This document shows positions 476 through 17,699 of a stretch of DNA of 37,692 nucleotides, one piece after another; the stretch's first letter is position 1, and each line of letters opens with the position of its first letter. The notes below the pieces were generated by a model, which made no database searches, had not been told where the DNA came from, and worked only from the letters and a program-made list of their open reading frames with translations. Location of the stretch: positions 1 to 37,692 of the forward strand of contig WJOY01000020.1 of NCBI GenBank assembly GCA_009619075.1. Reading direction: 5' to 3'. Origin of the DNA: Dehalococcoidia bacterium (lineage in GTDB: Bacteria; Chloroflexota; Dehalococcoidia; GIF9; AB-539-J10). The translations under genes and the position numbers were made by a program.

Positions 476-550
476 TCCCTGGTAGCTCAATGGTAGAGCA
501 GGCGGCTGTTAACTGCAAGGTTGTAGGTTCGAATCCTACCCGGGGAGCCA
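476..550 (+). tRNA. tRNA-Asn (GTT), CCA encoded
   Basis: Acceptor TCCCTGG/CCGGGGA, anticodon loop CTGTTAA, T-loop GTTCGAATCC, encoded CCA at 548-550. Confidence 0.95.
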
Positions 551-593
551 ATTTGGGTTTTCCGAAGCTGAGCAGATACAAAATGACCCGACC
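527..593 (+). repeat. Cassette boundary repeat copy A (attL-like): tRNA-Asn 3' end plus right arm
   Basis: GTTCGAATCCTACCCGGGGAGCCAATTTGGGTTTTCCGAAGCTGAGCAGATACAAAATGACCCGAC; right arm shared with copies B and C. Confidence 0.8.
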
Positions 594-733
594 TTCCTAT
601 GGTCGTTGCAATTGCTAGAACCTGAGTATTTGCCCCAGCTGAAGTATTAAGCAACGACAAACGATACAAAAGTGTTTGCACCGCTACCTGCGTTTCCGCT
701 AGAGTATAATAAAACGCAAATGAGGTGCTTGTA

Positions 734-1450
734 ATGCGTAAGAGCCGCCGGATAGGTCAGAACTGGTTGGTGATAATCATAGCAATGTTCTTGTTAGCGG
801 TAGGACTTGTTGTATTTAGACTTTTGGATTTCTTTACAACTGCTGAAGCCGTCAACATTTTCCTTGTAGCTGCTCTGGTTCTCGTGACTACTGTCTATGC
901 AAAGGAATCAGAGAAGTCAAGGAAAGCTACGGAAGAACAAGCAAAAGCCACTAGGGAGATGGCAGAGGAAATGAAAGAGCAAAGACAAAGCGCTGTTATT
1001 CCAATATTGGTAGCTGAGTGCTTCCCGAAAACCGTAAAGGCTGATGGTGAACACGAACTGTTGGGTGTCTCAGTAATACTTCGGAATATTGGCTTAGGTC
1101 CGGCTCTGGATATAGGAATAAGTCTAGTTGAGGCTCCGCCTCAGCAGATAGAGTACGCATGGAAAGAAGGCAAGACGGCAGGCATTTCTTCCTTCAGGAC
1201 TCAGTTCAATTTGTCTGAATTAGCATCTGGAGAGGATACAGCGGGTAATCCAAAGGATATGCCCGATTTGCACCTTATCAAGAACATGAAATTTACAATT
1301 GTTACCGAGTGTATCGATGGTTATAGAAATGTTATTGGGGCGTACAGGGGTTTTCGCGTGTTGGAGGGCGAGAGAGGCAAATTGCTTATCGAAGTAACTC
1401 GAACTGTTTCTGCACAAAAAGTCGGCCATAGAATCAGAAGCTATCCCTAG
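734..1450 (+). CDS. Cassette 1: small membrane protein, N-terminal TM hairpin, coiled-coil linker, putative beta domain
   Basis: ORF with ATG at 734 after GAGGTG; two hydrophobic stretches, then KATEEQAKATREMAEEMKEQRQ and LRNIGLGPALDIGISL. Confidence 0.75.
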   Translation: MRKSRRIGQNWLVIIIAMFLLAVGLVVFRLLDFFTTAEAVNIFLVAALVLVTTVYAKESEKSRKATEEQAKATREMAEEMKEQRQSAVIPILVAECFPKTVKADGEHELLGVSVILRNIGLGPALDIGISLVEAPPQQIEYAWKEGKTAGISSFRTQFNLSELASGEDTAGNPKDMPDLHLIKNMKFTIVTECIDGYRNVIGAYRGFRVLEGERGKLLIEVTRTVSAQKVGHRIRSYP

Positions 1451-1522
1451 CTTCAACTAGGGGAAAGCCTCCATTCACTGCTAACTCGTGCCAGGCTTAC
1501 GATAAGAGATATTGTAAGGAAA

Positions 1523-1600
1523 GTTCGGATTTCCCCCCACGCGGGGAGCAAATTTGCTCTTTCTGAAGCTAAGCAGATACAAGTCTACCCGAACTCGGGC
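1523..1600 (+). repeat. Cassette boundary repeat copy B (attP-like)
   Basis: GTTCGGATTTCCCCCCACGCGGGGAGCAAATTTGCTCTTTCTGAAGCTAAGCAGATACAAGTCTACCCGAACTCGGGC. Confidence 0.8.
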
Positions 1601-1706
1601 ATATTGCGGTTGTTGGAGTGTAGTTGCCTTTTTGACGGTTGAGCTGTACACTATAAATACTATTGGGTTACCTACAATTCAAATCTTTGCGTCCTTTTAG
1701 CTAACA

Positions 1707-2813
1707 ATGAATGACTTCTGTGCCCTTTATATATCGGATTTTTCCATAAGAGATAAACGCACACTCAACACACTGTGTTTATTCTACGACCGTGTTTTTT
1801 TGCATGATTATTTTGGTATATTTCACTGCGTGCAAAACCAAGATATCTACGATAATTATGAAAAGGCAAGCAAAGGGTTAATTGACCCTAACTGGGCAAT
1901 TGCCGGAGGATTAGATTCAGAAACTAAACGTTACTTAAAATCTGCATTTGAGACGGGTTTTGATAATTTTGTTCTAAAAGGAGTGTCCCAAGGTCTTGGA
2001 TGTGCCACTGGCAAATTTAGCCCAACTTTTGTATTGAACTTTGCTAAGACTTACATCGATTTCTTAAGGGCGAATCGTGTTCTTTTCTTTGAGGACGTTC
2101 TCTGCTTTTGCCAGAGCCTACGCAATCCGTTGCACCCAGCACACAGACTAGAAGGCGGGGTCAAGCTAGATTTAAGCTGTTCACAAAAAGAGAATTTTGA
2201 TAGCCTTTCAAAGGCTCTCTTAAATAATAAGTATGCATGTCTATTCGAACAAGAATACCATAGGCTTCCCTTGGTCTCAGATTCAGAAGAGGATCTTCTT
2301 CGCTGGGATCGAGCTAAAGACTTACTTACCACAGCTTTGTTACTAACAGCAATACCTGCTAGAGTACCCACCATATCTGAGGTCACAGCCGACGAAATTC
2401 TCGAAGCAAGAGAAAAATTAAGAGACCTGCTACCGCCGTTTCGTTCTTCTATTCTGAAGGCAGCTTGGGAGATTGCCAAGGCATCACGCGAAACATCTCA
2501 AAAAGAAGTTATGGGACTGGCTCAACTATATTACGAGACCAATATTGTACCCAGCATTTTCGAAATTGAAAGCAAAATAAAATCTGAGAGCAAAAAACTA
2601 TTTCGGAAGCTGATAGAGCAAGGAGTAGACAAGGCCACTCTTGTTGCAAAAGCTTTAGATCCAACCGAGCCCTTTTCCAAGTGGGATTTGATTGGCTCTG
2701 GCCTTAAGTCTCTATTGGATATCGATTCGTCTTGGCAATCAAAGGTCAAGATTAAAGGTCCTTATGAGTTTCTTATAAGATTGCCAAGCGTTATTCGGAG
2801 AAAGAGGTATTAG
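1707..2813 (+). CDS. Cassette 2: hypothetical protein (368 aa)
   Basis: Single long ORF between repeat copies B and C; no family recognised. Confidence 0.75.
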   Translation: MNDFCALYISDFSIRDKRTLNTLCLFYDRVFLHDYFGIFHCVQNQDIYDNYEKASKGLIDPNWAIAGGLDSETKRYLKSAFETGFDNFVLKGVSQGLGCATGKFSPTFVLNFAKTYIDFLRANRVLFFEDVLCFCQSLRNPLHPAHRLEGGVKLDLSCSQKENFDSLSKALLNNKYACLFEQEYHRLPLVSDSEEDLLRWDRAKDLLTTALLLTAIPARVPTISEVTADEILEAREKLRDLLPPFRSSILKAAWEIAKASRETSQKEVMGLAQLYYETNIVPSIFEIESKIKSESKKLFRKLIEQGVDKATLVAKALDPTEPFSKWDLIGSGLKSLLDIDSSWQSKVKIKGPYEFLIRLPSVIRRKRY

Positions 2814-2928
2814 ATACCAACGGCGGTGGACGCAGGCTTTGTGGTCTCAACAACGTTAGACGCATTGCCAATTGGGTGTTTCCTGTTTGCCCCTCGGTAG
2901 GCTGATGATGAGAGAAACAGTGAACGAA

Positions 2929-3010
2929 GTTCGGATTTTCCGCCCATGCCGGGAGAAAATTTGCGTTTTTCTGAAGCTAAGCAGCTACAAAATCACCCGA
3001 ACTCAGGCAC
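2929..3010 (+). repeat. Cassette boundary repeat copy C (attP-like)
   Basis: GTTCGGATTTTCCGCCCATGCCGGGAGAAAATTTGCGTTTTTCTGAAGCTAAGCAGCTACAAAATCACCCGAACTCAGGCAC. Confidence 0.8.
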
Positions 3011-3067
3011 GTTGATTTGCTTAGGGACACCAGCAAATATTAGTTGTCTAGGAAAGGAGTGAGGTAG

Positions 3068-3748
3068 ATGGACAAAGTGGCTATACGATTCTGGGGGATG
3101 TGGGGGCTGAGTTTGTTAGTGGTGTTAGTTGTAGCAGCTTGCGCTGTAATAGCAGTATGGCTATCGCCTACCCAATACAGTCGGCAAATTGAATCTTCCG
3201 CTCTTGTTCTTGCAGCCATTATGATGGGCTGGTCTGCTTGGCAAAGTAGAAGCATCGCTTACTCAAGCAGGGAACAAATCGAACAAATGAGGCAGCAAAG
3301 GGTGGAAGTGGTGCGCCCGTCGCTGTCTTTGAGACCGGAGCACTATACCGCAGGTGGCGGCTTTATGACTCTGCTCTTGCAAAATACGGGAGGCCTAGCT
3401 AGGGAGGTTAAGATAGACATTGAAGCGACTAATTCACTTGAGAAGAAGTCTCTGTTTATCCCTGCTATTGATACAGAGCACATAGTATATCTCCCGATAG
3501 ACATCCACAAAATTGAGAGAAGTAGTGGCACGGTCAAAGTGAAGGCGTACCTAAAAGATAGCTACAATCGTAACCTTACAGAAGAATTATCTATTGATTT
3601 CGGCATGCTAAGAGCAGAAGACAGGGATTTTGCCTTTCAAGAGGCACCTATGTACAGAGCCTTAGGGAACATCGAGCGAAAGCTAGGAGAAATAGAACGT
3701 AGCTTAAGACAAATAGAAGGTGATTTCAAGCCTATCGGGCGACGTTAG
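3068..3748 (+). CDS. Cassette 3: small membrane protein with the same architecture as cassette 1
   Basis: RBS AAAGGAGTGAGGTAG before ATG; two hydrophobic segments, EQIEQMRQQRVEVVRPSL, LLQNTGGLAREVKIDI. Confidence 0.75.
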   Translation: MDKVAIRFWGMWGLSLLVVLVVAACAVIAVWLSPTQYSRQIESSALVLAAIMMGWSAWQSRSIAYSSREQIEQMRQQRVEVVRPSLSLRPEHYTAGGGFMTLLLQNTGGLAREVKIDIEATNSLEKKSLFIPAIDTEHIVYLPIDIHKIERSSGTVKVKAYLKDSYNRNLTEELSIDFGMLRAEDRDFAFQEAPMYRALGNIERKLGEIERSLRQIEGDFKPIGRR

Positions 3749-3846
3749 CCGTGTGATAAGTTTTTGTGATTGAGCTACGCGGTAAACAAAAGCTATAGCT
3801 AAAGTCACTATGCCCTAAACTTAGCAAGAACCAAACCTCAATAAAA

Positions 3847-3870
3847 GTTCGGATTTTCCCCGGGGAGCCA
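3847..3870 (+). repeat. Cassette boundary repeat copy D (attR-like): left arm plus tRNA-Asn acceptor end
   Basis: GTTCGGATTTTCCCCGGGGAGCCA; CCCGGGGAGCCA is identical to the tRNA-Asn 3' end and the right arm is absent. Confidence 0.75.
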
Positions 3871-3882
3871 CCTTCGAATTAA

Positions 3883-5028
3883 CTAGTAGGAATCTCTATA
3901 AATCTGGGCTACGGCAGGAGCATCGAGCAAATTAGGGTGTTTACTAAGCCACGGAGCCGTCCTTATAGCACAATCGGCTATTTCCTCAATACGCTGAGGT
4001 TCGATACCGAGAGTTCGCAGGTTAAGTTTCATCCCCACCTTATCCAACCACCCTTCGACTGCAGCTATCCCATCTGTCTCACCAAAAACATTTCTGCCCA
4101 GGGAATTAAACCTCTCTTGCCGTACAGGAAAAGTATACCTCATCCAAGCAGGAAGCAGTGCCGCCAGTCCATCACCATGGGCAATATCATAGTACCCACT
4201 TAGAGAAAGCTCAATACCATGAAGAGTCAGATAGCCGGCACCACTTCCCAGATGTCTAACAGGTGAACAGGCAATGGTACTGGCCCAAGAAAGCTTGGTA
4301 CGAAACTCAATATCGTCCAGCTTGCTCAGTGTTCTAGGTAAAGTCTCCACCACCAGCTTCATCACCGTTTCCAAAATTCCATCGGTCAGAGGAGATGTTC
4401 TCTCTGTTGTAATATAGCATTCGCCTACATGGCAAAAAATATCCACTCCTCCCTGCACTGTTGGCTTCTGAGGAAGGGTAAGAGTCAGTTCAGGGTCTAC
4501 AATAGAAACCTTGGAAAAGAAAGCCGGACTAAATAACACCCGCTTCTCATGAGTTTCCCAGTTAGTAATCACGGCAGCATTATCGGCTTCAGAGCCGCTG
4601 GCAGCCACAGTCGGTACCAGCACAAGAGGTAATAAAGGTTCCACTACTTCAATATCCTCAGCTCCAATATAATAATCCCAAATTGGTTTACCGCCACTGC
4701 TAGCTAATGCCATACACTTGGCTGTGTCCATAGCGCTGCCGCCGCCAAGACCAATGATTAAGTCCACTCCCTTTTGGCAAACCAATCTAGCCCCCTCATC
4801 CACGGTAGAGGCACGAGGGTTAGACACTACTTTATCAAAAATGCAGACCTCCAGCCCATTACTCTCCAAGTCTCGGGTTACCTTATCTAGTAACCCTGTT
4901 TGTCTCGCACTGTGGGAACCAGTTACCAGCACAGCCCGCTTGCCCAATCTTCTCACCTCTGCTCCCAACCTCGCCACACACCCTGAGCCAAAGATAATCT
5001 TAGTGGGTAGATAAAAAGTGGTCACCAT
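3883..5028 (-). CDS. Iron-containing alcohol dehydrogenase
   Basis: IIFGSGCVARLGAEVRRLGKRAVLVTGS, GLGGGSAMDTAK; Fe-ADH family. Confidence 0.92.
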   Translation of the reverse strand: MVTTFYLPTKIIFGSGCVARLGAEVRRLGKRAVLVTGSHSARQTGLLDKVTRDLESNGLEVCIFDKVVSNPRASTVDEGARLVCQKGVDLIIGLGGGSAMDTAKCMALASSGGKPIWDYYIGAEDIEVVEPLLPLVLVPTVAASGSEADNAAVITNWETHEKRVLFSPAFFSKVSIVDPELTLTLPQKPTVQGGVDIFCHVGECYITTERTSPLTDGILETVMKLVVETLPRTLSKLDDIEFRTKLSWASTIACSPVRHLGSGAGYLTLHGIELSLSGYYDIAHGDGLAALLPAWMRYTFPVRQERFNSLGRNVFGETDGIAAVEGWLDKVGMKLNLRTLGIEPQRIEEIADCAIRTAPWLSKHPNLLDAPAVAQIYRDSY

Positions 5029-5176
5029 AAGGCACCTCCTGAGAAAGTATCAGATACATAAATAATACTTCAAAAGAGAATTATATCATGTTACCTACAC
5101 CATCGAGTTTGAGAATGAAATAAGCAGTGGAACCAAAGCCCATAATATGGCTTTCCCAGGTTCTCTTTCATGTGTA

Positions 5177-7435
5177 TTACAACTCCTTTCCCTTTATACC
5201 CCGTCTATCTACAATTATCCTGAGCAGAGCAGGCAGGAATACAATGGCGCCAAAGAAGCAAAGGCTCAACCCAATAATGGGGATGAGGCTCAAGGACCTC
5301 ATTGAAGGATGGCTGGAGAAAAGGAACGAGGAAAATGCCAGACAGGTGGTGGCCGTGGTAAGGAATATAGCCTTCCCCGTGAGTTGTATAACTTGAGGCA
5401 GTGAACCCTTACCCTCTTCTAAGTAGCGGTGAACGATGTGAATGCCATCATCTATTCCTATTCCGATGACCAAAGGTATCATGCTAATCGAAGAAACGTT
5501 CAGATTGGCACCAAACCACTGGTAAGTTCCCAGGAGCCCAAGTACGCCAAAGGCAACTGGAACCATGGAAAGCAGGGCGTAGACCGGACTACGCCGCCTG
5601 GTCCCAAAGTAAACGATGAGGACAAGCATCCCGGAAGCCATCAAGGAGACGCGGATTACATCTGTGGTCATCACGGTAAGCAACTTGGTCCAGAGTACAG
5701 CGCTAGCAGTAACATTGGGGTGAATCTCACGCAGATCAGCGAGTAGCTTTCTCTGGTACGATTTATCATACAGGTCACCATCAGGGATTATCCTTATCAA
5801 GAACTCCCCCTCATCGGAAACCCACGAGCGAGAGATTTCCTTTGGTAGCTCCTTATAGCTCATCGGTGTTACGTCTATCCCGGGCATAATAGCAAGTTCA
5901 GGATGAAGCCTAACAGCTTGCTTAATGGCCTCTAGCTTTTGGTCCTGATTTTCGGGTAGGTAATCGAGAATGGATTCTACTTTCAGAACCCCATCCACAT
6001 TCTGAAATTCCTTGACACAGCGGTTGAGTTCCCGCTGCCCTTTAACTACACAGGTAAGCTGCTCAGGGTCATAGTCAAAATTCTCCTTGACCTTCTCAAG
6101 CTGTTGGTAGGTCTCAACCTCGGTCGGCATGAGTTCATACATACTCTCACTCAATTTGGCACTGGGCGCCCTGATACCGAATAAGACAAAGAGGGCAACC
6201 AGGATTACCAGAATTCCCGGAGCAAAGCGCTGTACTTGCACGCCGACCACTCTGAGAATATTGAATCTTGTGCGCTTAAATTTGAACCGGCCAAATTTAA
6301 GCCTCAAGACAACCAGGGCAGGAAGCAGGACGAATACCGCCACCAGGGTCAGGGGCAAACCGATGGCGCCGATGACGCCTAACTGATGTAGTGCTTTGGT
6401 CTCGGCAAAGTAAAAGGAGAAAAATGCTGCTGCCGTGGTGAGACAACCCAGAATAACCGCTCTTCCAGTGTGGACAAAGGTATGCTCAAAGGCAAGGGTG
6501 ACATTATCGTGCTCCTCCATCTCACCCATAAACCTCGTCAGTAAGTGGATACAGAAGTCGATACCAAGGCCCAATAGCAGGACGGCAAACGCAGCAGAGA
6601 GTGCATTGAGAGAGTCATATACGAGGAATATCACCCCCGATGTCCAGATTATCCCGATGAGCAGCGGGATGGCGGACAGAAGCGGTAGAGACAGGCTTCT
6701 GAAAGAGACGAAAAGGAGAATTAAGATGAGTATCAAGGTGATAAACGCTGTGAGGTAAATGTCCTGCATAGCCATTTTGTCACCTTCGTAGTCGATGACC
6801 ATCAGACCGCCAGTAAAGCCTACATTGAGGGCTTCATAGTCTTTATCCTCCCCCCTGGTTTCAGTGATAAGCCTCCCCAGGTCGTCGAGGAGATAATTCC
6901 TCTCCAGAGGATTCTCCATGTCTATGGTGAAACCCATAGTGATGAGGTAAATCCTCTTGTTATCCGAGACGATATATTCTGAGAGGGTTGCCTTTTCCAG
7001 CGTAGCGGTTGGTAAAGCCTCGAGCATTCCTGGTGCGGCACGAGGGTCCATTAGGGCGGCAAATTGCTCCTCCGGCAGGTAGAGAATTCCTTTTTCGGCG
7101 GCAAAGCTGAAGTCTTTTTTATATTGAACATCCTCCCAGCGGCTGTCCTTTTCCAACTTCTTTGCCAATGTCCTGGCATACGCCTTGGCGGTGTAGGCAT
7201 TTGAGTCTGAACAGTCTATGACCACCACTACCATATTAGACCCCCCGAATTGCTCTTCAACTGCCTCGGCCGCGAGGAAGTCGGGGTCATCCGACTCGAA
7301 GTATCCCTCCATGCTGGTATCTATAGTGAAATTTGAGGCTGGAATAGCAGCCAGCACTGTTATGCCAAGCACGATCGCCACCGTCTTCACCGGATGGCGG
7401 GTCGTCGCTTTCACCAGCCTTTCGAGAATATTCAT
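5177..7435 (-). CDS. RND superfamily (MMPL/HpnN-like) exporter
   Basis: 752 aa with duplicated TM bundles, LLGLGIDFCIHLLTRF and GIGIDDGIHIVHRY motifs. Confidence 0.88.
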   Translation of the reverse strand: MNILERLVKATTRHPVKTVAIVLGITVLAAIPASNFTIDTSMEGYFESDDPDFLAAEAVEEQFGGSNMVVVVIDCSDSNAYTAKAYARTLAKKLEKDSRWEDVQYKKDFSFAAEKGILYLPEEQFAALMDPRAAPGMLEALPTATLEKATLSEYIVSDNKRIYLITMGFTIDMENPLERNYLLDDLGRLITETRGEDKDYEALNVGFTGGLMVIDYEGDKMAMQDIYLTAFITLILILILLFVSFRSLSLPLLSAIPLLIGIIWTSGVIFLVYDSLNALSAAFAVLLLGLGIDFCIHLLTRFMGEMEEHDNVTLAFEHTFVHTGRAVILGCLTTAAAFFSFYFAETKALHQLGVIGAIGLPLTLVAVFVLLPALVVLRLKFGRFKFKRTRFNILRVVGVQVQRFAPGILVILVALFVLFGIRAPSAKLSESMYELMPTEVETYQQLEKVKENFDYDPEQLTCVVKGQRELNRCVKEFQNVDGVLKVESILDYLPENQDQKLEAIKQAVRLHPELAIMPGIDVTPMSYKELPKEISRSWVSDEGEFLIRIIPDGDLYDKSYQRKLLADLREIHPNVTASAVLWTKLLTVMTTDVIRVSLMASGMLVLIVYFGTRRRSPVYALLSMVPVAFGVLGLLGTYQWFGANLNVSSISMIPLVIGIGIDDGIHIVHRYLEEGKGSLPQVIQLTGKAIFLTTATTCLAFSSFLFSSHPSMRSLSLIPIIGLSLCFFGAIVFLPALLRIIVDRRGIKGKEL

Positions 7436-7556
7436 CTGTTACCCGTGTCAAGAAATATAGGTGCCTTATCCTCTAAGAGCCACAACCCCCGTGCACCTTG
7501 TTTCCTCTACCTCAATTACGTCATGCTACATAACTATTTCCTACCTTAAAAGGGAA

Positions 7557-8756
7557 TTAAGTCACAGGAAGCACAACTTTTTCTCCCTCTTTTAGCCCGG
7601 ATAAAACCTCGCTATATATGCCATTGCTTAAACCCAGAGTAACTTGTCTTTTCTCAGTCTCATCGTCGGTGACAACTTCCACCCAGGGGTTTTCCAGAGA
7701 CCCCTGAATAGCTCGATTGGGTATCAGCAATACATTATCACGACGGTTAGTGATAATTTCAGCACTGGCACTCATACCATCTTTAAGTTCTTCATCAGGA
7801 TTTCCCAAAGTTATGGTAATTTTGTAAGACACCTCATCTTCCCAAACTTTGCCCGTTGGGGAGATGAAAGTTACCTTCCCTTTTACTTTTTTATCAGGCA
7901 AAGCAATCAAGGTAATAATGGCTTCCTGCCCCAGCTTCACCTTGGAAATGTCTATCTCGTCAATTTCACCACTCATTTCCACGTTACTGGGGTCAACCAG
8001 GTAGATTGCTGGACTGCTGTATGTCATAGCCGAAAGCTGCTGCCCTTCATCTATATAAACATCGGCTATGATGCCATCGAAAGGAGCAATAATTGTTGCT
8101 TTGGCCAGCTCTAGCTCGACCACAGCTAACTCTAGCTTTGCCATATCTAAAGCTGCTCTGGCTTCATCTGTCTCCAGTTCAGCCAATTTAACACTAAAAG
8201 GCAGCGCCCATGTCCTAGCGTGTGATTTCTTTTGCGCCTTGGATGTGTTCTCCTCAACCAGCTCTAGTAAAGCTTGTGCCCCCTCAATTTCCCCTTGCTC
8301 TAAAAGCTCTTGAGCTTCCTCTAAATTATTCTGGATTTCCTCTAGAGCTAGCCAGACCCCGGGCACGTCAATAGCATAAGTGTTGGTATAATGGGGGTAG
8401 ATTGTTTGCATAAGGTTATTTTCAGCCATTTTGTATTCAGCTTGAGCCATTTCATATCCACCTTGAGCCATCCCTACCCCCATTTCTAAGGGGCGAATAT
8501 CGAGCTTGGCTAATACTTGACCCTCGATTACCTTATCTCCCCTTTCCACCAGTATCTCATCTACTGCTCCCATAGTACCAAATGATAGATATTCCTTATG
8601 ACGCATTTTTAAATTGCCTTCTTTAGCAGAGACACTTATTATTAAATCGCCCCGAGTAACTTCAGCTGTTTGCAAGGGCATTTCTTGCTGGACACATCCG
8701 GCTAAAATTGAGCCAACCAAACACATCGCTATTATTGAAATTAACCATTTTTTCAT
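7557..8756 (-). CDS. Efflux RND transporter periplasmic adaptor (HlyD family)
   Basis: Lipoprotein-like signal VGSILAGC, biotinyl-lipoyl-like halves, APFDGIIADVYIDEGQQL. Confidence 0.9.
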   Translation of the reverse strand: MKKWLISIIAMCLVGSILAGCVQQEMPLQTAEVTRGDLIISVSAKEGNLKMRHKEYLSFGTMGAVDEILVERGDKVIEGQVLAKLDIRPLEMGVGMAQGGYEMAQAEYKMAENNLMQTIYPHYTNTYAIDVPGVWLALEEIQNNLEEAQELLEQGEIEGAQALLELVEENTSKAQKKSHARTWALPFSVKLAELETDEARAALDMAKLELAVVELELAKATIIAPFDGIIADVYIDEGQQLSAMTYSSPAIYLVDPSNVEMSGEIDEIDISKVKLGQEAIITLIALPDKKVKGKVTFISPTGKVWEDEVSYKITITLGNPDEELKDGMSASAEIITNRRDNVLLIPNRAIQGSLENPWVEVVTDDETEKRQVTLGLSNGIYSEVLSGLKEGEKVVLPVT

Positions 8757-8878
8757 TTAATCAGCCTCCTCTTTGGAAACGTCTCCATTTTACTACCACC
8801 GCCAAAGCCCGACAAGACTGGTAACCACACCATAAGTAGAGATACTAAAAGAAACACCTCCAAAATAATTATGCTCAT
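8753..8878 (-). CDS. 41-aa single-TM microprotein, translationally coupled to the adaptor gene
   Basis: MSIIILEVFLLVSLLMVWLPVLSGFGGGSKMETFPKRRLIK*; SD AGGAGGG just upstream; stop overlaps the adaptor ATG (ATGA). Not in the ORF track. Confidence 0.65.
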   Translation of the reverse strand: MSIIILEVFLLVSLLMVWLPVLSGFGGGSKMETFPKRRLIK

Positions 8879-9004
8879 TGGCCCTCCTCTTATTATTCAT
8901 TTGGAATAACTTTCCACCACATCATTATCGCGCTGCTTTTTGTTTCATACACGCCATCCTACAACTTCTCTAGGCCAAAAAGAAAACGCTGTAAGCCCCC
9001 TGTT

Positions 9005-15495: not shown

Positions 15496-16380
15496 CTACT
15501 GCAGCATAGCCACATAGCTATTCATAGGCACCCCGAGTGAATCTGCTACAGGTTTACACTTCGCCATAAGGCAATAGAAAAACTTCCCTTGTTCGGGAAG
15601 CTCGCTCAAAGCCTCATAATGCCCCATCCCTTTAGCAAATATGAGGTCCGCCGATGCAAACTCCTGTTTGAACTGAGTTGAGGCCAAAGTAAAAACTATT
15701 CCCGGTGAAGCTACACCTGTAGTTATGACCTTCCCAAAGTCACTTTCCAAGCCAGCATTGCTAATATCCTCCAGAGTAGCATCATTCTGAACAGGTAAGG
15801 GCTTAACTACGTAGATAACATCAGCAAATTGCCTCATCTTCTTGACTAGAGGCAAATCGAAGTAAACTTCACCAGCATTATCAGCCAAATACAGAACTTT
15901 GCTTGCCTTTCTTAGCTTCGCTTCAAATCGTTGTGAGTCATCTATAGTAAAGCTTATGGACTTTCCCATATCCTCCTTGATGATGCCAGACTCCCTGAAG
16001 AAATCTATGGCATTCGCTGCAGCGGCGAGTTTAAGACAACCCTCAAAATCATCCTTATAGAGATTACTTCGCTTCCTGCCACGCCTTCGGCTCGCAGCTT
16101 CGGCTCGCAATGACAGCTCAGGGTATAATTCCCTAGCAATTGCCATCTCCTTCTCTTTCATCCTCCGATAAGGGTCAGGATTGTGGGTTATTTCCTTTAT
16201 CACCTGATGAATCTTAGTAGCAATCACAATAGATATCTGGTCATAGGAAAATTCATCATCCAGAATTCTCAGAGCTTCTTTTATTGCCTTCTGTTTAAGC
16301 AAGTTATTATCAGTTGCTAAAATAGCAGCTTGATGAATTAACCTTTGCAAACACTGATAGCATTCCGGTGAGATTTTCAC
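15496..16380 (-). CDS. DUF89/ARMT1-like family protein
   Basis: MKISPECYQCLQRLI, LYLADNAGEVYFDLPLVKKM, DLIFAKGMGHYEAL. Confidence 0.9.
   Translation of the reverse strand: MKISPECYQCLQRLIHQAAILATDNNLLKQKAIKEALRILDDEFSYDQISIVIATKIHQVIKEITHNPDPYRRMKEKEMAIARELYPELSLRAEAASRRRGRKRSNLYKDDFEGCLKLAAAANAIDFFRESGIIKEDMGKSISFTIDDSQRFEAKLRKASKVLYLADNAGEVYFDLPLVKKMRQFADVIYVVKPLPVQNDATLEDISNAGLESDFGKVITTGVASPGIVFTLASTQFKQEFASADLIFAKGMGHYEALSELPEQGKFFYCLMAKCKPVADSLGVPMNSYVAMLQ
16061..16116 (-). repeat. Dispersed GTCATTGCGAG... repeat inside the DUF89 CDS
   Basis: Minus strand TGTCATTGCGAGCCGAAGCTGCGAGCCGAAGGCGTGGCAGGAAGCGAAGTAATCT. Confidence 0.75.
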
Positions 16381-16442
16381 TTCAACTCCTGGTTCAAAAA
16401 GAGAATCTGAGACCCTTCACCATCATTCAGTCACCTTTTCCT

Positions 16443-16538
16443 TGTCATTCTGGATGAGTGAGCTGGAGCCCTGAACAAAGTGAAGGGAAAGTAGAGTAAA
16501 GAATCTCAGAGATTCTTCGCCTACGGCTCAGAATGACA
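16443..16538. repeat. MITE-like repeat with terminal inverted repeats
   Basis: TGTCATTCTG...CAGAATGACA ends; internal AGAATCTCAGAGATTCT palindrome. Confidence 0.75.
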
Positions 16539-16628
16539 GAGAATAAGGTTATCAAACACTCCCTTTAAATTTGAGTGCCCTGCACTACTATATTATAATA
16601 ACTTAAAAACAACCAGTGGGTGTGGGCT

Positions 16629-17699
16629 ATGCTTGATAAATTGGAATTAATACAGAAGCGCTATGAAAAGCTAACTCGGCTGATAGCTCAACCTGAAATA
16701 GCCACTGAACCAAAGCAAGTACAGGAGCTAACCAGAGAGAGAGCTAGCCTTGAAGGTATCGTTACCATATACCAAAAATACAAGGCAAACTCTAAAGAGT
16801 TAGCTGAAATGGAGGCTTTACTCGACAACACTACAGAGGCGGACCTAATAGCTCTCATTAAGGAGGAAACGAGCAAGCTTAAGCAACACCAGGATGACCT
16901 CCTTCGCCAGCTCAAACTCTCTTTACTGCCCAAAGACCAGCTAGCTAATAAAGATGTCATCATTGAAATAAGAGCTGGTGCCGGTGGTGAAGAGGCAAGC
17001 CTTTTTGCTGCCGACCTATTCCGTATGTATAGCCGCTATGCCCAAAATAAAGGCTGGGAAGTAAACATTATCAATAGCAACCAGAGTGAAATCGGAGGCT
17101 TCAAGGAAGTAATATTTGAGGTTAAAGGTAAAGGCGCCTTTAGTCAATTAAAGTACGAGCGTGGCGTTCACCGAGTGCAAAGAGTGCCTCTCACTGAGGC
17201 TTCTGGACGAATACACACCTCCACAACCACTGTAGCTGTTCTACCTGAAGCAGAAGAAATTGAGCTGAACATCAACCCAGATGACCTCAAAATGCAATTC
17301 TTCCACAGCCACGGCGCTGGAGGACAGAATGTAAACAAAGTAACTACAGCAGTTCGCATTACGCATCTGCCCACCGGCATAGTAGCTACTTGTCAAGATG
17401 AGCGCTCCCAAGTAAGAAACAGAATGAAAGCCATGGCAGTACTCCGAGCCAGGCTATTTGACTTAAGACAGCGCAAGCAATCTGAAGAGATAGATAGACA
17501 ACGAAGAACTCAAGTAGGCAGTGGCCAGCGGGCAGAGAAAATACGCACCTATAACTTCCCACAAGAGCGTGTTACCGACCACCGCATCAATTCAACTTTC
17601 CACAATCTGAACCAGATTTTGGACGGAGAACTCGATGAAATCATCGAAGCTCTGTCTGCTAAAGAGCAAGTTGAACAATTAGAAGCAGTCCTTTCATGA
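16629..17699 (+). CDS. prfA: Peptide chain release factor 1
   Basis: GGQ motif in SHGAGGQNVNKVTTAVRITHLPTG; RGVHRVQRVP. Confidence 0.97.
   Translation: MLDKLELIQKRYEKLTRLIAQPEIATEPKQVQELTRERASLEGIVTIYQKYKANSKELAEMEALLDNTTEADLIALIKEETSKLKQHQDDLLRQLKLSLLPKDQLANKDVIIEIRAGAGGEEASLFAADLFRMYSRYAQNKGWEVNIINSNQSEIGGFKEVIFEVKGKGAFSQLKYERGVHRVQRVPLTEASGRIHTSTTTVAVLPEAEEIELNINPDDLKMQFFHSHGAGGQNVNKVTTAVRITHLPTGIVATCQDERSQVRNRMKAMAVLRARLFDLRQRKQSEEIDRQRRTQVGSGQRAEKIRTYNFPQERVTDHRINSTFHNLNQILDGELDEIIEALSAKEQVEQLEAVLS

Follow-up and report, generated by a model that had tools for sequence, protein, structure and literature searches.

What kind of genetic element lies behind the tRNA-Asn gene of the Dehalococcoidia draft genome G000 (936 kb, 68% complete)? 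The window that we analysed, a 37.7-kb stretch of this genome, opens with a Phe-Gly-Leu-Gln-Asn tRNA gene cluster (ARAGORN), the last member of which, tRNA-Asn(gtt) (476..550, + strand; ARAGORN and Rfam tRNA), is followed by three units separated by tRNA-like repeats. An original prediction, made from the letters of the sequence, had read these units as single-gene cassettes that are anchored on the tRNA gene, carry no integrase and are mobilised in trans. Having followed the repeat through relatives of G000, we put the probability at about 0.68 that positions 551-3870 are a tandem array of three mobile cassettes which inserted site-specifically at the tRNA-Asn 3' end, accreted there, lack a recombinase of their own and are mobilised in trans.

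A precise insertion at the 3' end of tRNA-Asn

In the congener G002 (L107) the site is empty: the tRNA cluster runs straight into the right flank of the window (96.6% identity over 1292 bp), with a junction that reads ...GTTCGAATCCTACCCGGGGAGCCA / GCTTCGAATTAACTAGTAGG... and holds a single CCCGGGGAGCCA. The window carries this 12-bp sequence twice as a direct repeat, once as the tRNA-Asn 3' end itself (539-550) and once at 3859-3870. Compared with G002, the array is thus a precise insertion of 3320 bp (551-3870) flanked by a 12-bp direct repeat. The backbone gene to the right of the array (3883..5028, - strand; iron-type alcohol dehydrogenase-like by inspection) lies directly downstream of tRNA-Asn in G002.

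The boundaries are formed by four copies of the repeat, which align at the positions that had been claimed for them and which a profile of the site recovers with E-values far beyond chance. Copy A (525..594, + strand; E=6e-16) joins the T-arm and tRNA 3' end to a right arm, GAAGCTGAGCAGATACAAAATGACCCGACCT. Copy B (1488..1600, + strand; E=5e-22) is complete, consisting of a left arm, the core GTTCGGATTT, CGGGGAGC and a right arm, with the outer inverted repeat AGTTCGG/CCGAACT; copy C (2894..3008, + strand; E=2e-20) is likewise a complete site and is 84% identical to it. Copy D (3817..3870, + strand; E=1.5e-8) joins left arm and core to the CCCGGGGAGCCA of the backbone (3859-3870), a junction shared with the congeners G001 and G002. 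This anatomy, together with the congener junctions, bears out the assignment of A as attL, of B and C as attP-like and of D as attR. The repeat had been described as ~72 bp long, which is right as to its place but too short: B and C measure ~113 bp, because a conserved left arm of ~35 bp precedes GTTCGG. Junctions A and D require that the exchange fall between GTTCGGATTTTCC and the CCA end. It thus maps to the ~8-bp block CGGGGAGC, which occurs both in the cassette site and in the 3' strand of the tRNA acceptor stem.

The content of the site differs among close relatives. Ahead of the same right junction G001 has a cassette that is different from, and unrelated to, those of the window, so that G002 is empty at tRNA-Asn, G001 has a different cassette and G000 has three. 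At a tRNA-Asn/hpf locus, G006 is empty, whereas the insert of G003 measures 2.9 kb and terminates in a D-type copy. Insertion at tRNA-Asn and variation of its cargo were both anticipated by the prediction, and the two observations that could have undone it were not made: empty tRNA-Asn sites exist, and outside the tRNA-Asn locus the repeat is found nowhere in the 936-kb, 68%-complete draft of G000.

Each unit of the window contains one substantial + strand open reading frame (ORF), as predicted. The first, of 238 aa from the ATG at 734 (734..1450, +), encodes one or more transmembrane (TM) helices, a charged linker and a soluble domain; it belongs to no confident family and is distantly related to a cassette ORF of G019. 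The second, of 368 aa (1707..2813, +), is an orphan: 83 further genomes of the order contain no homologue of it, and Pfam, NCBIfam, PADLOC, plasmid and IMG/VR searches gave no match. The third, of 226 aa (3068..3748, +), combines N-terminal TM helices with a soluble domain and has a partial 47% match in a Dehalococcoidia metagenome-assembled genome (MAG; L026), which makes Dehalococcoidia the probable identity of the class surveyed below.

Two further features of G000 deserve mention. Elsewhere in its assembly (L108, G000:C11:1-9000), a second tRNA cluster, Phe-Leu-Gln-Asn (517-862), is followed by hpf-like sequence as in G006 and G003, with no array; it is either a paralogous cluster or part of a contaminating contig. 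Further along the window, ~3.8 kb (5111-8951) encoding, by inspection, an MMPL-type transporter and an HlyD-like protein are absent from the corresponding place in G001.

A class-wide site family with exchangeable cassettes

A first search with copy B as the query found copies in relatives, and a sequence-only model of 117 positions detected the site family both in the order (24 of 84 genomes) and in the class (32 of 394). Outside the class, a draw of 399 genomes from the phylum gave three matches, each consisting of left arm and core. An iterated profile collects 87 sites from 39 genomes. Of these, 15 are complete, 18 have the right arm only, 45 have the left arm only and nine are reduced to the core. 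Its consensus runs from the left arm AAAGCTATAATGAGCCAGACATCGACAAAA through GTTCGGATTTTCCCCTGCTCGGGGAGC to the right arm AATTTTGCTTTTTCCGAATCTGAACAGATACAAAATGGCCCGAACT, and its best-conserved block is GGGAG. The left and right arms resemble each other as direct repeats no better than shuffled sequences do (159/500), the repeat has no Rfam match that would indicate an RNA function, and promoter and terminator scans show no excess over shuffles. IMG/VR yielded nothing for any of three patterns of the site or for two cargo queries, and the top matches in a phage collection were only tRNA genes. Beyond the class, G502 has two complete tRNA-Asn genes (L196, 9882-19991), each followed by an island of ~3.8-4 kb that ends in a D-type copy.

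Defining a cassette as the interval between neighbouring sites, we obtained 35 cassettes of 207-3413 bp (median ~600 bp), most of them single genes or toxin-antitoxin pairs. The longest ORF lies in the orientation of the array in 31 cassettes and against it in four (p=3e-6). Of these four, three are HicB(A) cassettes whose genes do follow the array, and one contains no evident gene. This common orientation suggests that the cassettes may be transcribed from upstream. The cargo includes HicA/HicB, ParE/RelE and Phd proteins, nucleases of the HNH and GIY-YIG types, a HAD phosphatase and a NERD protein, besides a weak match of type IV restriction kind and many orphans. Small GIY-YIG nuclease genes stand directly behind tRNA-Asn or as cassettes in G031 (L126, from 4202 onward), G100 (L134, 9769-10005) and G179 (L138, 8659-9063), and their products could be either cargo or participants in mobilisation. 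In G117 (L132, 9822-11094), a cassette array is interrupted by IS3-type transposase genes that lie on the other strand.

Cassettes are exchanged between arrays. A HicBA cassette common to G042 and G033 (92% identity over 505 bp) stands at the hisB locus of both, with different neighbours on either side, and the DNA homology extends from AAGTTCGG to the core or right arm of the next site. The swap thus has its boundary at the core, and from these limits it follows that the left arm moves with the preceding gene. In G040, G052 and G119, which come from three families, HicAB cassettes with 75-76% DNA identity occur at three different loci, and at the polA locus G007, G020 and G037 carry different cassettes. 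The search that the prediction had pointed to, for the repeat in the genome and its relatives, has in this way led to a family that spans the class and exchanges its cassettes.

A simple scheme would account for these arrays. Each cassette consists of one gene with the right arm at its 5' side and the left arm at its 3' side, and its circularisation would unite the two arms around one complete site of left arm, core and right arm. Recombination of such a circle with the tRNA gene would yield attL and attR; later circles would recombine at a site already present and add in tandem, leaving complete sites between the units. The circular intermediates are part of this inference, as is a recombinase acting in trans, which would be a host Xer-like enzyme or one supplied by a transient element. 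It would most likely be of the tyrosine type, since a site built of a core with arms and a target at a tRNA 3' end both suit such an enzyme.

Anchors and the search for a recombinase

Several observations weigh against mobilisation in trans from a tRNA anchor. Although the window and the arrays of G003, G052, G090, G100 and G165 stand at full tRNA-Asn genes, many anchors are not tRNA genes, and arrays also follow hisB, polA, aroE and hpf, so that the tRNA anchoring of the original prediction describes only part of the family. Immediately behind hisB, polA, aroE or hpf, the non-tRNA arrays open with sequence that resembles a T-arm and is of the type GTTCGAATCCTGCTCGGGGAGC. This sequence is present with the array and missing from empty hisB loci of the same genus, and a simple attB explanation therefore fails there. 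Furthermore, several internal sites have no recognisable right arm, the genomes compared are draft MAGs, and no helper recombinase was identified among the genomes searched. G031, which is 93% complete and carries an array, has just two Xer-like tyrosine recombinases, one of them with visibly altered catalytic motifs, and hence no recombinase family is common to all carriers.

The hisB loci also bear on a different explanation, in which the repeats are mere patches of homology and RecA-type recombination after DNA uptake gains or swaps the units. Beside arrays in G002, G019 and G031 (L029, L030, L077, L183), hisB 3' ends are duplicated in direct orientation over 81-321 bp. These duplications show that other recombination shapes the loci too, and they give the impression that hisB serves as another attachment target. 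The junctions, however, lie precisely at a short core, a congener has the empty site, and one site family with three distinct forms occurs at many unrelated loci across the class, all of which makes the RecA-type explanation quite improbable.

For a site-specifically inserted array mobilised in trans, the enzyme has to be sought elsewhere. We found no tyrosine or large serine recombinase in the 37.7-kb window, and neither type inside any array; the array loci that were fetched are free of tyrosine recombinases altogether. The absence of an integrase from the cassettes, which the prediction had noted, extends to all of these arrays; the check that it proposed, for a tyrosine recombinase beside the same repeat elsewhere, found none in the fetched array loci. 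Genome-wide, one Xer-like tyrosine recombinase was found in G001. Two candidates were considered and set aside. Adjacent pairs of tyrosine recombinases of ~311 and ~329 aa look like conserved Xer-type genes and have no site nearby. Close homologues of a recombinase of 309 aa from G119 occur in G016, in G035 (on the same contig as an array), in G073 (where no array was found) and, as a pseudogene, in G052; this pattern is suggestive, but it was found starting from array-bearing genomes, and in G031 and G100 no close homologue was found. G000 itself has an Xer/integron-integrase-like gene (L105, 7958-8566) with an apparent internal deletion.

Could the helper instead be a large serine recombinase, as DsiB is for the ssrA islands of Dehalococcoides? 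In array-bearing genomes, large serine recombinase genes run with their 3' ends antisense into tRNA-Asn (G117), tRNA-Ile (G042) and tRNA-Gln (G031) (L204 6599-8218; L202 5323-6966; L201 ~6700-8397), an arrangement that resembles DsiB/ssrA, and in G190 (L198) the end of such a gene (15684-17294) holds a D-type junction (17122-17177). In G190 a cassette apparently inserted between the tRNA-Asn 3' end and a serine element, which accounts for this junction. At tRNA-Asn of G117 the element ends in TTCTGTATAAAAGGTAAAACTC, which differs from the cassette right arm, and we rejected these tRNA-adjacent enzymes as candidates. PF00239 was found in just 5 of the 22 genomes searched, nearly all of which bear arrays, and no serine recombinase was detected in G000. 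We consider a serine helper improbable.

Comparison with known systems

Among the established elements that come near are cis-mobilizable elements (CIMEs), which keep attL and attR without an integrase and form tandem arrays via accretion (PMC5704250), and the array of the window likewise has attL and attR flanks and no integration or transfer genes. Its units might accordingly be deletion derivatives of larger integrative elements that lost the integrase, kept their att sites, accreted by means of the integrases of relatives and are now mostly immobile. Tandem accretion and integrase-less islands with retained attL and attR are established (PMC5704250), 15 of 31 Dehalococcoides ssrA islands have no integration module (PMC3146451), and some of the sites described here are degenerate. 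Whereas CIMEs are decayed integrative and conjugative or integrative and mobilizable elements, our units are gene-sized and have no known parental element: no related complete element, and no integrase-bearing parent beside the site, was found in the array loci of the 39 genomes or in three IMG/VR pattern scans. The units are, moreover, uniformly tiny with genes in one orientation, unlike random deletion products. Such a remnant origin is unlikely, in our estimate, and we retain mobile cassettes moved in trans as the preferred reading.

The Dehalococcoides ssrA islands come from what is probably the same bacterial class. They too stand in tandem behind a short RNA gene, at its 3' end, and about half lack an integration module; they differ in their target (ssrA), their 20-bp direct repeat, the serine recombinase DsiB of complete islands and their much larger cargo (PMC3146451), whereas the anchor in the window is tRNA-Asn and no serine recombinase lies there. 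Additive flexible genomic islands, described in Ca. Actinomarinales (PMC7771536), at tRNA-Lys in Ca. Methylopumilus (PMC10872708) and in Alteromonas (PMC5217437), are also built from small cassettes added by insertion with fast turnover among close relatives, and in Ca. Actinomarinales and Ca. Methylopumilus the sites are tRNA genes with repeats of the tRNA end. The array described here shares the tRNA 3'-end position, the tRNA direct repeat and the variable content in close relatives. Unlike those islands, it has a conserved site of ~100 bp with both arms at every junction and mostly one-gene, one-orientation units, and the same site family recurs across the class, also at non-tRNA anchors. 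Tycheposons are tRNA-bounded too, and span 4-200 kb marked by a tyrosine recombinase (described in PMC10872708); our array has 3.3 kb and no recombinase. The original prediction had considered one-gene units without an integrase unusual. Recombinases are indeed missing from the arrays, but single-gene tRNA-anchored cassettes have precedents in the literature. The nearest are CIMEs and accretion, the ssrA islands and the additive tRNA islands, the last of which share the principle of cassettes at a tRNA gene.

Integrons are the best-known means by which bacteria stockpile single-gene cassettes. Their attC sites are conserved in the secondary structure of the folded bottom strand and not in sequence; they are bounded by the boxes RYYYAAC ... 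GTTRRRY, the outer of which is where exchange occurs. The comparison with integrons that the prediction had drawn holds for the oriented arrays of single-gene cassettes and breaks down at the site. Its boxes are GTTCGGA ... YCCGAAC, so that the outer inverted repeat is ordered GTT...AAC, opposite to attC, and exchange takes place in CGGGGAGC, ~25 bp inside the site. The sequence is strongly conserved; the covariation term of the consensus fold is positive, i.e. unfavourable, with only one pair changed on both sides, and single-strand fold z-scores range from -0.1 to -3.8. Clusters of attC sites lacking integron integrases (CALINs) and integrons also have arrays of single-gene cassettes in a common orientation, toxin-antitoxin cassettes and a site at the gene 3' end (PMC9024848), and with the missing integrase these likenesses would favour reading our repeats as attC. 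The arrays, however, have no IntI, no attI and no other tyrosine recombinase, their sites are not attC-like, and the array of the window is anchored on a tRNA 3' end; we regard a CALIN as a very remote prospect.

What the present system adds to these precedents is a defined cassette site with arms that is found throughout a class, gene-sized oriented units and anchors beyond tRNA genes. We tentatively propose, at somewhat less than even odds, that it is a class-wide gene-capture system independent of integrons, in which gene-sized cassettes carry their own ~100-bp site, form oriented tandem arrays and are moved in trans by a recombinase encoded elsewhere, which may be an Xer homologue of the host. 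The core of the site would mimic tRNA-Asn, namely its T-arm and the 3' strand of its acceptor stem. The ~100-bp site would then mark accessory genes (toxin-antitoxin pairs, nucleases, orphan membrane proteins) as exchangeable units. If this is true, small-genome, largely uncultured bacteria have a second system that outwardly follows integron logic but is unrelated to it in sequence, and arrays of single-gene cassettes have evolved more than once.

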